Below, piece after piece: positions 11,534 through 15,676 of a stretch of 21,026 bases of DNA. The DNA is from a virus: positions 1 through 21,026 of the IMG/VR virus record IMGVR_UViG_3300042549_002202. One strand, written 5' to 3'. Each line of letters opens with the position of its first letter. Position 1 is the stretch's first letter. A program made the translations under genes and the position numbers. Under the pieces are notes generated by a model. It had not been told where the DNA came from, searched no databases, and saw nothing but the letters and a program-made list of their open reading frames with translations.

Positions 11534-11547
11534 TTAACAAATGTTAG
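11534..11547 (+). repeat. Early-region inverted repeat, copy 12 (one mismatch)
   Basis: TTAACAAATGTTAG, about 80 bases after the P3 start. It contains the likely ATG of the AAA+ ATPase gene. Confidence 0.88.
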
Positions 11548-12641
11548 AAATCATTAGCGTAATCAGAAAGACCATCATGGCAGAAATCAATTTCGGTAAA
11601 TCAATTACCCTCAAGCAAGCGGCAAACCTTATCCGCACAAACCCAACGACTCGGTTCTTGTTACAAGGCGAGCCCGGGATTGGGAAGTCCTCCCTACTAG
11701 AGAATATCGCCGACTCCCTCGGCTTTGAGTATGCCTATATTGACGTACCCAATATGGACTTGGGTGACATCGCAATGCCTGTGATCGACCACGACTCCAA
11801 GACCACACGCTACTACCCCAATGCACGTTTTCGTATTCATGAGAACAAGCCATTGGTCATCATGCTCGATGAGTTCACGAAGGGTGCTGACCCTGTGAAG
11901 AACATGCTTCACCCTATGCTTGAGAAGGCAAACCCACGACTCGGTGACATTCCCCTCACCGCCAATACCATAGTATTCTTGACGGGTAATCTAACGACCG
12001 ATGGCGTGGGCGACTCCCTCAAAGCGCATAGCCGTAACCGACTTGTGCCGGTGACAATTTGCAAACCCGATGCCGAGCAGTGGATTGAGTGGGCTATTGG
12101 TAAGGGACTCGAGCCCGAGGTGATTGCATGGGTGAATCGTTTCCCTCACGTACTCGCAAGCTATACCGATGCGGCACAAGGTGACAACCCATACATCTAC
12201 AACCCACGCAAAGCTCAGCATGCGTTCGTATCCCCACGCTCATTGGAGACAGCATCGAACATTGTCCGGACTCGCAAAGAGAACGACCCTGATTCGGTGA
12301 TTGCCGCTTTGACTGGTGCGATTGGTGAATCGGGTGCGCGTGATATGCAAGCGTACATTGAGTTCTCAGATCAATTACCTACATGGGAAGCCACGATCAA
12401 AGAACCAAAGACTACGACTGTACCCACAAGTCCGGGCGCATGTGCCATTGTGGTGTTCGGTGCTATCTCTCGGATTACGAAAGACACCATTAGTCCGTTC
12501 ATGGATTACTTGTCTCGATTCGATGCCGAGTGGCAAGCCGTGTTCGCTATCAACATTGCCAAGAACCCTGCGAAGCAGAGTATCGCTTTCTCAAGCAGTG
12601 CGTTCAAGGACTGGGTCGTTAAGAACCAAGACCTACTCTAA
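11541..12641 (+). CDS. MoxR/CobS-like AAA+ ATPase
   Basis: 366 residues. Walker A GEPGIGKS at residues 43-50, Walker B LVIMLDE at 105-111, sensor-1 FLTGN at 146-150 and an arginine-finger region HSRNRLV near 163-169 identify an AAA+ ATPase of the MoxR/CobS group. In such systems the ring-shaped ATPase works with a VWA-domain partner to remodel proteins or insert metals; the VWA gene is 612 bases downstream in the same operon. Two starts are possible: ATG 11541 in repeat copy 12 (Met-Leu-Glu as in other genes here, no clear Shine-Dalgarno) or ATG 11577 (MAEINFGKS, weak GAAAG upstream). The protein substrate in the phage or host is unknown. Confidence 0.92.
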   Translation: MLEIISVIRKTIMAEINFGKSITLKQAANLIRTNPTTRFLLQGEPGIGKSSLLENIADSLGFEYAYIDVPNMDLGDIAMPVIDHDSKTTRYYPNARFRIHENKPLVIMLDEFTKGADPVKNMLHPMLEKANPRLGDIPLTANTIVFLTGNLTTDGVGDSLKAHSRNRLVPVTICKPDAEQWIEWAIGKGLEPEVIAWVNRFPHVLASYTDAAQGDNPYIYNPRKAQHAFVSPRSLETASNIVRTRKENDPDSVIAALTGAIGESGARDMQAYIEFSDQLPTWEATIKEPKTTTVPTSPGACAIVVFGAISRITKDTISPFMDYLSRFDAEWQAVFAINIAKNPAKQSIAFSSSAFKDWVVKNQDLL

Positions 12642-12651
12642 CAAATGTTAG
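12638..12651 (+). repeat. Early-region inverted repeat, copy 13 (exact)
   Basis: CTAACAAATGTTAG with the ATPase stop and an in-frame ATG of the next gene. Confidence 0.92.
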
Positions 12652-12872
12652 GAATGAACGGCATGACTGCAACCGACTTCAAGAGGTACATCGTCAGGTG
12701 GGTAACTGACCATATAAAGAATGAAAGCGGTACTGCTCAGATACAGGTACTCGGGTACTGTGTATACGACACGAAAGAGTGCAAGACTTTGTTTGAACAC
12801 AAGGACAAGCAAGTGTGTGAAAAGGTATTAACAATGGTATTGGAAGGAGTAGATCATGGGATACAGAAGTGA
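12645..12872 (+). CDS. 75-residue protein, unknown function
   Basis: Possible starts are ATG 12645 in repeat copy 13, 12654 and 12663; only 12663 has an AGGA at fair distance, so the N-terminus is uncertain. The sequence (FKRYIVRWVTDHIKNESG, then VLGYCVYDTKECKTLFEH) suggests a small alpha/beta protein. It overlaps the next gene by 17 bases. No family recognised. Confidence 0.65.
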   Translation: MLGMNGMTATDFKRYIVRWVTDHIKNESGTAQIQVLGYCVYDTKECKTLFEHKDKQVCEKVLTMVLEGVDHGIQK

Positions 12873-13236
12873 TGTGATGGCGGTGTTCTACACCTACGAC
12901 CCTAACGAGTACCCCGCAATGAAGCTATTCATTGACGAGAACGTGCCTGAGTTCTTCAGGGGTGACGAGTACATGCGGTTGTTTAGTGGTGGTATGCCTA
13001 GACACGTACAGGGTATTAAGTTCACCATGAATGGCATGAAGTGGTATCCGTCATTCCCCGAGGTAAAGGGTTTTGAAGATGCCATTAGCAAGTTTGAGAA
13101 GCTCAGCGATGGTGGGGACAAATGGTTGTGGGAGTTCGTGCGTCTAGGAGAGGAGGTGGAAGACGTAGAGGAAAGATGTTGTGCGGAATCCGAGGGTTTC
13201 CTGTATGTGAATAGAAGTATTGAGTGTGATTTTTAA
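12856..13236 (+). CDS. Conserved phage protein with MGYRSDV start
   Basis: 126 residues starting MGYRSDVMAVFYTYDPNEYP, with AAGGAG a few bases upstream of the ATG. Proteins that start MGYRSDV and have a following beta strand are frequent in phages and some plasmids, without known function. It contains KWYPSFPEVKGFEDAI and WLWEFVRLGEEVEDVE; the acidic C-terminal half may be a helix. It lies between the AAA+ ATPase and the VWA gene, but nothing shows that it works with them. Confidence 0.8.
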   Translation: MGYRSDVMAVFYTYDPNEYPAMKLFIDENVPEFFRGDEYMRLFSGGMPRHVQGIKFTMNGMKWYPSFPEVKGFEDAISKFEKLSDGGDKWLWEFVRLGEEVEDVEERCCAESEGFLYVNRSIECDF

Positions 13237-13246
13237 ACAACGAAAG

Positions 13247-13260
13247 GTAACAAATGTTAG
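13247..13260 (+). repeat. Early-region inverted repeat, copy 14 (one mismatch)
   Basis: GTAACAAATGTTAG, with AAAGG just upstream and the VWA gene start inside. Confidence 0.88.
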
Positions 13261-14537: not shown

Positions 14538-14550
14538 ATGTAGGTTATTT

Positions 14551-14564
14551 ATAACAAATGTTAG
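14551..14564 (+). repeat. Early-region inverted repeat, copy 15 (one mismatch)
   Basis: ATAACAAATGTTAG; its final AG begins the AGGAGG ribosome site of the gene at 14575. Confidence 0.88.
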
Positions 14565-14574
14565 GAGGTATCAG

Positions 14575-14826
14575 ATGGTAGTAGTAGACATTGGTTACAA
14601 GAAGTTAGTTATGCCGAAAGACAAGGCAATGCTATTGGTTGAGTGCTTAGAGAGTGCCGACGTATACGAAGAGAAGTGGTGGAGTGATGACGTGCGCAAA
14701 GAGAAAGGAATGGATAGCACTTACACCTACCACGTGTATCCGAACGAGGCATCGTTCAACATGAAGATCGTTAGTGACACACATTATCAAATGGCTAGAT
14801 TAGCCGGAAAACCACAGGAGAAATGA
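14575..14826 (+). CDS. 83-residue protein, unknown function
   Basis: MVVVDIGYKKLVMPKDKAML at the start. The ATG at 14575 is chosen because AGGAGGT lies 6 bases upstream, though the frame is open back to 14497 inside the VWA gene. The product contains KWWSDDVRKEKGMDSTYTYHVYP and looks like a small alpha/beta protein. It ends two bases before the next start. No family recognised. Confidence 0.75.
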   Translation: MVVVDIGYKKLVMPKDKAMLLVECLESADVYEEKWWSDDVRKEKGMDSTYTYHVYPNEASFNMKIVSDTHYQMARLAGKPQEK

Positions 14827-14827
14827 A

Positions 14828-15676
14828 ATGAGTATTAGTGCATCAGCAGTATTAGTAGAGTTGAACATCAGCGTTTGGCCTGCCGCAAAGATCGATCGTG
14901 AAATCACGAGCCAAGTCAATGCAAGCGCATCAGCACACAAAGATGCGTCACAGACCAAGAAGAATCTGTTTGCGGGTACAAGCCTACGAGCAGACATTGA
15001 GAAGTTCGCCGCAAGAGTTCGTCTTTACAACAACCAACACACCTTACCTTGGGCAGACAAGGGTGAGCGCATGTTGCCGACCAAGTTGTTCATGGACTAC
15101 AAACAGACCATGAATGGATACGAGCGTACGTTCAACATGTTGTGCGATAACTTCTTTGACGAGTACGAGAGGTTGGTTGACGAAGCCAAGGTCAACTTGG
15201 GTTCTATGTACAAGGCAGAGGACTACCCCGATCTAACAAATGTTAGGACTAAGTTCAGCTTTAGACGTAGTGTGAAGCCATTGCCCGAGGCGGGCGACTT
15301 TCGCTTAGACATTCCTGCGCATGACTTGGAGGAAATGAGATCTGCATACGAGTTGCAGTATTCGGAGAAGCTGGCCGATGCGATGCGCACACCATGGGAA
15401 CGCCTGCACGAAGTTCTCTTGGGTATGTCCAAAAAGTTGGAAGATGTAGGTGACGGGAAGAAGCGTTTCCACGACTCATTGATTAGCAACCCATTGGAGT
15501 TGTGTGAGTTGTTGACGAAGCTGAACGTGACTAACGACCCCAAGTTGGAGGATGCACGTAGGCAAGTAGAGCTAGCTATGCTTGGAGCTGACATTGAAGA
15601 GGTCAAGGATAGCCCGTTGGTTCGTGAGAATCTAAAGTCTAAGGTCGATGCGATCTTGGGTAAGTTCGAGTGGTAA
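14828..15676 (+). CDS. DUF3150-like protein associated with MoxR/VWA
   Basis: 282 residues. The start (ASAVLVELNISVWPAAKID), the TLPWADKGERMLP block near residues 72-84, YKAEDYPDL and the PLPEAGDFRLDIP block fit what I remember of DUF3150-type proteins found in phages and bacteria beside CobS-like ATPases and VWA proteins. The rest is helical and charged. ATG 14828 has AGGAG 7 bases upstream. Repeat copy 16 sits within the gene and reads Leu-Thr-Asn-Val. Together with 11541 and 13254 it probably forms one functional group, an inference from neighbourhood. The family assignment is from memory and should be treated as probable. Confidence 0.75.
   Translation: MSISASAVLVELNISVWPAAKIDREITSQVNASASAHKDASQTKKNLFAGTSLRADIEKFAARVRLYNNQHTLPWADKGERMLPTKLFMDYKQTMNGYERTFNMLCDNFFDEYERLVDEAKVNLGSMYKAEDYPDLTNVRTKFSFRRSVKPLPEAGDFRLDIPAHDLEEMRSAYELQYSEKLADAMRTPWERLHEVLLGMSKKLEDVGDGKKRFHDSLISNPLELCELLTKLNVTNDPKLEDARRQVELAMLGADIEEVKDSPLVRENLKSKVDAILGKFEW
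15233..15246 (+). repeat. Early-region inverted repeat, copy 16 (exact)
   Basis: CTAACAAATGTTAG in the middle of the DUF3150-like gene, far from any gene start, coding for Leu-Thr-Asn-Val. Confidence 0.92.

Follow-up and report, generated by a model that had tools for sequence, protein, structure and literature searches.

A DUF3150-like protein is inherited as one unit with an AAA+ ATPase and a metallopeptidase-VWA protein in phages and plasmids

Introduction

A gene pair encoding an AAA+ ATPase and a metallopeptidase joined to a VWA domain is already known in phages. In phage N4 it consists of the middle genes gp24 and gp25 (PMC4193335), which at least one method counts in the core gene set of the N4-like group, and in jumbo phages of a MoxR-vWA(metallopeptidase) pair (phrog_1297/phrog_1314; PMC7824862). 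The pair occurs in hundreds of phage records, including that of the model phage N4, under the conflicting labels 'HNH endonuclease', 'MoxR' and 'CobST'. Here we analyse a locus that has the same two protein families, the same domain order in the metallopeptidase-VWA protein and the same adjacency as the N4 and jumbo-phage pairs, together with a third protein. It lies in a fragment from an uncultivated tailed phage, virus record IMGVR_UViG_3300042549_002202, of which positions 1 to 21,026 were studied (this whole stretch of 21,026 nucleotides is called the window). We refer to the ATPase as A, to the metallopeptidase-VWA protein as V and to the third, DUF3150-like protein as D, and to the three together as the triad. 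An earlier reading of the letters (the original prediction) had placed these three genes at 11541-15676 and regarded them as one system; all three gene identities were confirmed.

Joint inheritance in phages and plasmids

We fetched 150 viral loci with D as query and scanned them with profiles of A, V and D. The order AVD was found in 79 loci, ADV in nine and DAV in two, while in the other 60 one member was missing from the available DNA. Where more than 4.8 kb upstream of D was available (67 loci), A was present in all 67 and V in 65, and in the two loci lacking V the sequence ends 169 and 2 bases after D. On plasmids, D never occurred without A and V (41 of 41 records, accession lists compared by hand), and in the regions that were read the genes form a tight A-D-V operon on plasmids of Rhodovastum, Cupriavidus, Burkholderia and Paraburkholderia, and a looser one in Simplicispira. 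The order A-D-V, with small genes in between, is also that of Synechococcus phage MinM2. Long phage records (n = 27) held all three genes in 21 cases and none of them in six, namely DSL-LC04, 023Pt_psg01, HTVC027P, HTVC023P, CRP-901 and ctsTn925, whose terminases are about 34-57% identical. Used as a query, the window terminase matched each of the 21 triad phage records tested apart from the window, and the viral carriers of D are therefore phages; a phrog_2 search of the triad records found nothing. A, V and D had a ratio of nonsynonymous to synonymous substitution rates (dN/dS) of about 0.05-0.12 in the comparisons that allowed an estimate of dS, and a small protein named 'MGYRSDV' after its sequence had one of 0.25-0.31.

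A, V and D are thus one co-inherited unit and, since the phages and plasmids examined carry either the complete set or none of it, the three very probably form one machine. The original prediction had proposed as its own test that the three families co-occur in related phages and that loss of single members be uncommon; co-occurrence proved to be without exception wherever the flanking DNA sufficed, and the idea of a single system is upheld by joint presence in three gene orders, in both phages and plasmids, and by joint absence in the terminase relatives. The literature searched, in which no paper names 'DUF3150', yielded no description of a strict three-gene module with DUF3150, of its varied gene orders or of its presence in both phages and plasmids.

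This distribution bears on assembly, one of the roles that had been listed at the outset, and with it on the idea of a virion-assembly chaperone which also processes structural proteins. Such a role has been proposed for the jumbo-phage MoxR-vWA-metallopeptidase pair (PMC7824862) and reported for the tail of Acidianus two-tailed virus; moreover, the pair of cyanophage S-TIM5 adjoins an annotated virion structural gene, and roseophage virion genes lie close to the gp24/gp25 homologues. However, the whole triad occurs on plasmids, which have no virions, DSL-LC04 and the five other phages with related terminases do without all three genes, and in the window the triad is placed with replication rather than structural genes. 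Since the triad is found on plasmids, and is dispensed with by phages whose packaging genes are related, virion assembly seems an unlikely role for it. That one large branch of the pair turns out to be a strict module of three genes, found on plasmids too, leaves fewer roles to consider and disfavours virion assembly for this branch.

The pair without D and the cellular cassettes

Homologues of A were found in 467 phage records and of V in 729, but of D in only three. The A+V pair occurs with no detectable D in N4 (gp24/gp25), phiFa, CRP-7, a Rhizobium phage and phage G, which differ from the triad in having no DUF3150-like neighbour by profile comparison; across these five phages together with S-TIM5, nACB1 and cto1L10, none of 22 neighbours of the pair matched (hhalign, DUF3150 homology only). 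In the trees of A and V, pair-only and triad members are intermixed at deep nodes, many of them on long branches. Given the frequent occurrence of A and V without D and the interleaved trees, D behaves as a module that was added to a shared engine or dropped from it.

Several Burkholderiales genomes contain cellular PF11348 (DUF3150) cassettes of an AAA protein, a DUF3150 protein and a CobT-like protein (HExxH, DxSGS). They resemble the triad in the three-part layout of AAA, DUF3150 and HExxH/VWA proteins and in the remote homology of D, but differ in that their A belongs to a CbbQ_C-type branch (AAA_5/CbbQ_C), their V is CobT-like rather than DUF2201, and their D is very distant. The VWA protein of one such cassette (L075) matches Pfam CobT, and related viral AAA/VWA pairs have been published as 'CobST' (PMC8651126); both observations favour a role as CobS/CobT-type cobaltochelatase subunits that borrow host CobN to raise cobalamin synthesis, in line with an analogy to cobalt insertion drawn in the original prediction. 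That analogy fared poorly here. A and V of the window match no CobS/CobT family in Pfam or NCBIfam, CobN was found in none of 25 phage and plasmid records (some of which may be incomplete, and CobN from the host is possible), and neither the HExxH domain nor D would be explained, all of which makes a cobaltochelatase highly improbable.

Properties of the three proteins

A matches Pfam AAA_5/AAA above cut-off and phrog_1297 at 4e-49, and all its core motifs are intact as originally predicted (Walker A GEPGIGKS, Walker B VIMLDE and sensor-1 TGN). The Walker A Gly and Lys, the Walker B Glu, the sensor Asn, Arg 155 and Arg 221 are invariant across 31 homologues, and the two arginines are taken as the arginine finger and sensor 2. 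Since the homologues start at 'MxExxFGK', the true start of A is probably the ATG at 11577 rather than 11541. The best solved (PDB) profile match of A is midasin, at 7e-35. The locus thus has the two partners of a MoxR-VWA pair, a MoxR/midasin-clade ATPase with intact motifs and an adjoining VWA protein with an intact metal-ion-dependent adhesion site (MIDAS).

V matches the Pfam families DUF2201_N (5e-31) and DUF2201 (4e-17) as well as phrog_1314, and has the N-terminal metallopeptidase domain fused to a VWA domain that marks the N4 gp24/gp25 type. The presence of both HENLH and the MIDAS DTSGS, noticed at the outset, is reinforced by conservation: E70, H73, N94, D98, N102, the MIDAS residues D302/S304/S306, T366 and D390 are invariant across 124 homologues, and H69 is kept in 122 of 123. 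The predicted model has a confident N-terminal domain and a VWA domain, and the best Foldseek match of the latter is the human MDN1 (midasin) MIDAS bound to the ubiquitin-like (UBL) domain of NLE1 (NLE1-UBL). We rejected the PHROG label 'HNH endonuclease' for V, which is a DUF2201 metallopeptidase-VWA protein; the label of phrog_1314, apparently wrong, has entered RefSeq phage annotation (e.g. NC_055784, NC_023719).

D alone has no Pfam match; PF11348 gave none at E up to 1, and its gathering score was not reached. Its full-length homologues include a protein of Synechococcus phage MinM2 (28% identity, E 4e-27), annotated 'DUF3150', which itself matches PF11348 at 2e-6, and proteins of two Planktothrix/Planktothricoides phages. 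A profile of the D family (41 homologues) aligned with cellular PF11348 at an hhalign probability of 95.5% (E 1.5e-8, 219 columns). Because the profile comparison matches PF11348 and the direct Pfam search does not, D is a remote relative of PF11348 and not a formal member, and the label 'DUF3150-like' given to it originally is, on the MinM2 homology and the profile match, correct. Nine residues are invariant across the 41 homologues (W17, D23, K45, R65, L83, Y113, D132, P134 and P151), and Asp 157 is nearly so. The AlphaFold2 model is mostly helical with a small N-terminal sheet (predicted local distance difference test score, pLDDT, 84.7). Its clear fold relatives are only uncharacterised or DUF3150 phage proteins, and fold matches in the PDB cover the C-terminal helical bundle only, at Z of about 7-9, as any helical bundle gives. 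Mycobacterium phage Dylan gp94, a weak fold match encoded beside an AAA gene, was rejected as a relative of D because the neighbouring AAA is of the classical kind, with lid_3, and comparing profiles with D gave no match.

Possible mechanism and target

We put at about 0.55 the probability that the triad is a midasin-like engine with D as its adaptor or client, acting in phages and plasmids on an intracellular target rather than on the virion. A midasin-like mechanism is suggested because the profile of A and the VWA domain of V both match midasin best. By analogy, A would form an AAA+ ring on which V would dock, the metal of the V MIDAS would grip a client, and ATP hydrolysis by A would pull on it. 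The grip could be through an acidic residue of D (Asp 23, 132 or 157) or of something held by D; the choice among these aspartates is a guess. The client so presented may then be cut by the HExxH domain of V. D would be the dedicated adaptor or client that gives the engine its target, since A and V occur without D and D was never seen without A and V where the DNA sufficed. As for the target, the most likely would be a protein of the host or of its defences, or else a complex for DNA maintenance, relevant to phages and plasmids alike, because phages and conjugative plasmids both enter cells as foreign DNA and must establish themselves there. Two roles suggested at the outset, remodelling of a host complex and evasion of defence, would fit such a target.

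Several points weigh against this proposal. Many of the viral loci are near-copies, and the D sequences collapse to about 36 distinct groups. Co-occurrence is less strict in the cellular PF11348 branch, as within the DNA fetched an AAA gene was not seen in three of eight loci and V in two of eight (one of these at a contig end). Many unrelated VWA domains score alike with the VWA domain of V (VIA-align), so that its match to midasin reflects the expected VWA fold only. No solved structural relative of D was found that might hint at a role (best Foldseek E 0.23), and what points to D as adaptor or client is the distribution of the genes.

The proposal can be sharpened to a counter-defence or host-takeover protease, with D recognising a host or defence protein that the A-V engine would unfold and cut. 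The carriers are mobile DNA of two kinds, both of which enter cells and face the same defences, and this version would also suit the block-wise presence or absence of the triad, the conserved HExxH and the early or middle gene position. No anti-defence family was matched, however, and a role in plasmid defence or maintenance fits equally well. When the window proteins were compared with PADLOC models of known anti-phage defence systems, no system protein was matched and only weak partial AAA matches appeared (mad8 at 8e-5, and IetA). We regard this sharper version as tentative, with the odds somewhat against it. The client might instead be the element's own, the triad maintaining or processing its replication or partition complex. 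On several plasmids the triad is flanked by PRTRC or ParB genes on one side and transfer genes on the other, and in phages it is on the DNA polymerase strand, but the terminase-related phages replicate without it and no replication gene common to all carriers was seen, which leaves an own-protein client doubtful.

Extending the midasin-like reading to the whole family, DUF3150-like proteins might be target receptors that make the AAA+/VWA-metalloprotease engine a directed proteolysis or remodelling system disabling a host or defence complex. We consider this generalisation speculative and rather unlikely; if true, it would define a new class of three-part protein machines used by mobile elements, both phages and plasmids. 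D is singled out as the likeliest of the three to confer target specificity, and the question is now testable in laboratory phages and plasmids.

Genomic context

The minus strand of the window carries the terminase and portal genes, and the plus strand, from about 7.5 kb, carries small genes, the A-V-D set and a family A DNA polymerase. The triad is thus co-oriented with the polymerase and opposite to the terminase and portal, among replication and not structural genes, and by its position is judged to be a set of early or middle genes. A nucleotide search of phage records gave no match. The features of the region are listed in Table 1. The putative promoter P3, from which the operon had been predicted to start, is a perfect sigma-70-type site and lies upstream of A.

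Table 1. Predicted features in and around the triad of the window.
Feature	Position	Strand	Basis or remark
Promoter-like site P3, TTGACA-17-TATAAT, extended -10 (TG)	11421-11449	+	12/12 consensus matches, top site of region; predicted
A, MoxR/midasin-clade AAA+ ATPase	11541-12641 (likely true start 11577)	+	Pfam, PHROG, invariant catalytic residues, PDB profile match
Small variable gene, probably outside core	12645-12872	+	No family match; relatives lack it or are 37-96% identical
'MGYRSDV' small protein, optional satellite gene	12856-13236	+	Homologues in 15/44 triad loci
V, DUF2201_N metallopeptidase domain (HENLH) + DUF2201 VWA domain (MIDAS DTSGS)	13254-14537	+	Pfam, phrog_1314, conservation
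Small variable gene, probably outside core	14575-14826	+	Weak PHROG matches only; present in part of window clade only
D, DUF3150-like helical protein, third component	14828-15676	+	MinM2 DUF3150 homology, PF11348 profile link, AlphaFold2 model, distribution
303-amino-acid gene downstream of D	15683-16594	+	24/44 triad loci, all window clade; no family match
Palindrome copy at annotated A start	11535-11546		Exact
Palindrome copy at 12645 start	12639-12650		Exact
Palindrome copy overlapping V start codon	13248-13259		Exact
Palindrome copy upstream of 14575	14552-14563		Exact
Palindrome copy inside D	15234-15245		Exact
Palindrome copy TAACATTTGTTA between D and 15683	15677-15688		Exact

A palindrome with the 12-base core TAACAAATGTTA or TAACATTTGTTA has 18 exact copies between 7425 and 17948, many at gene starts. 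As the original prediction stated, every gene of the set has the repeat at its start or inside it, A and V at the annotated start and D inside only (15234). A copy also sits at the starts of 12645 and 14575 or shortly ahead of them, and 12856 has no copy of its own. Other triad phages carry multi-copy palindromes of their own: TAACAATGTTA in three loci (L059, L147, L163), TGACAAATGTCA in two (L105, L130), and GTTCAGCCTGAAC-like, GTTCATCGTGAAC and AGGGAATCCCT palindromes in one each (L002, L094 and L167 respectively). These look, from the sequences, like co-diverging operators of a multi-site repressor. Because the palindromes differ among triad phages, the operator-like array belongs to these phages and not to the triad; the common control through the repeat that had been suggested is plausible for the window clade, but does not extend to the other triad phages.

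It had also been suggested that the genes in between are part of the system, which for the most part they do not seem to be: 12645 and 14575 vary between relatives and are frequently lacking, while 12856 recurs near triads, in both AVD and ADV phages, but is optional and mobile, shifting in position.

The small protein encoded by 12856-13236 has the pattern 'MGYRSDV...KWY...EFVRxGEExxDIE' and is found around the triads of two phage groups (L095, L096, L099-L101 and others). An uncharacterised family of about 330 amino acids lies upstream of A in many related phages (L048, L049, L055, L059, L105, L163 and others) and not in the window; one member searched had no Pfam or PHROG match. The plasmid triads have near them a DNA cytosine methyltransferase (L087:10926-12335), a DUF3991/toprim protein (L085:5745-6653) or SNF2 and PRTRC genes (L193:1-9112). 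The window also contains a 27-base direct repeat, 96% identical, at 8728-8754 and 8789-8815 within a TAACATT/AATGTTA-rich stretch.

Comparison with known systems

The vWA-MoxR-VMAP ternary conflict systems (PMC7159879) are like the triad in combining an AAA protein, a VWA protein and a third protein, but differ, as judged by description only, in that third protein and in effector logic. Midasin (Rea1/MDN1) with its UBL clients resembles A and V in having an AAA ring plus a client-gripping MIDAS, whereas D, in its mostly helical model, is not UBL-like. Midasin is, moreover, one giant chain and is not known to include a metallopeptidase. RavA-ViaA, CbbQ-CbbO and NorQ-NorD share with A and V the combination of a MoxR AAA+ protein with a VWA cofactor; to our knowledge they have no HExxH domain, and their clients are metabolic enzymes or respiratory complexes.

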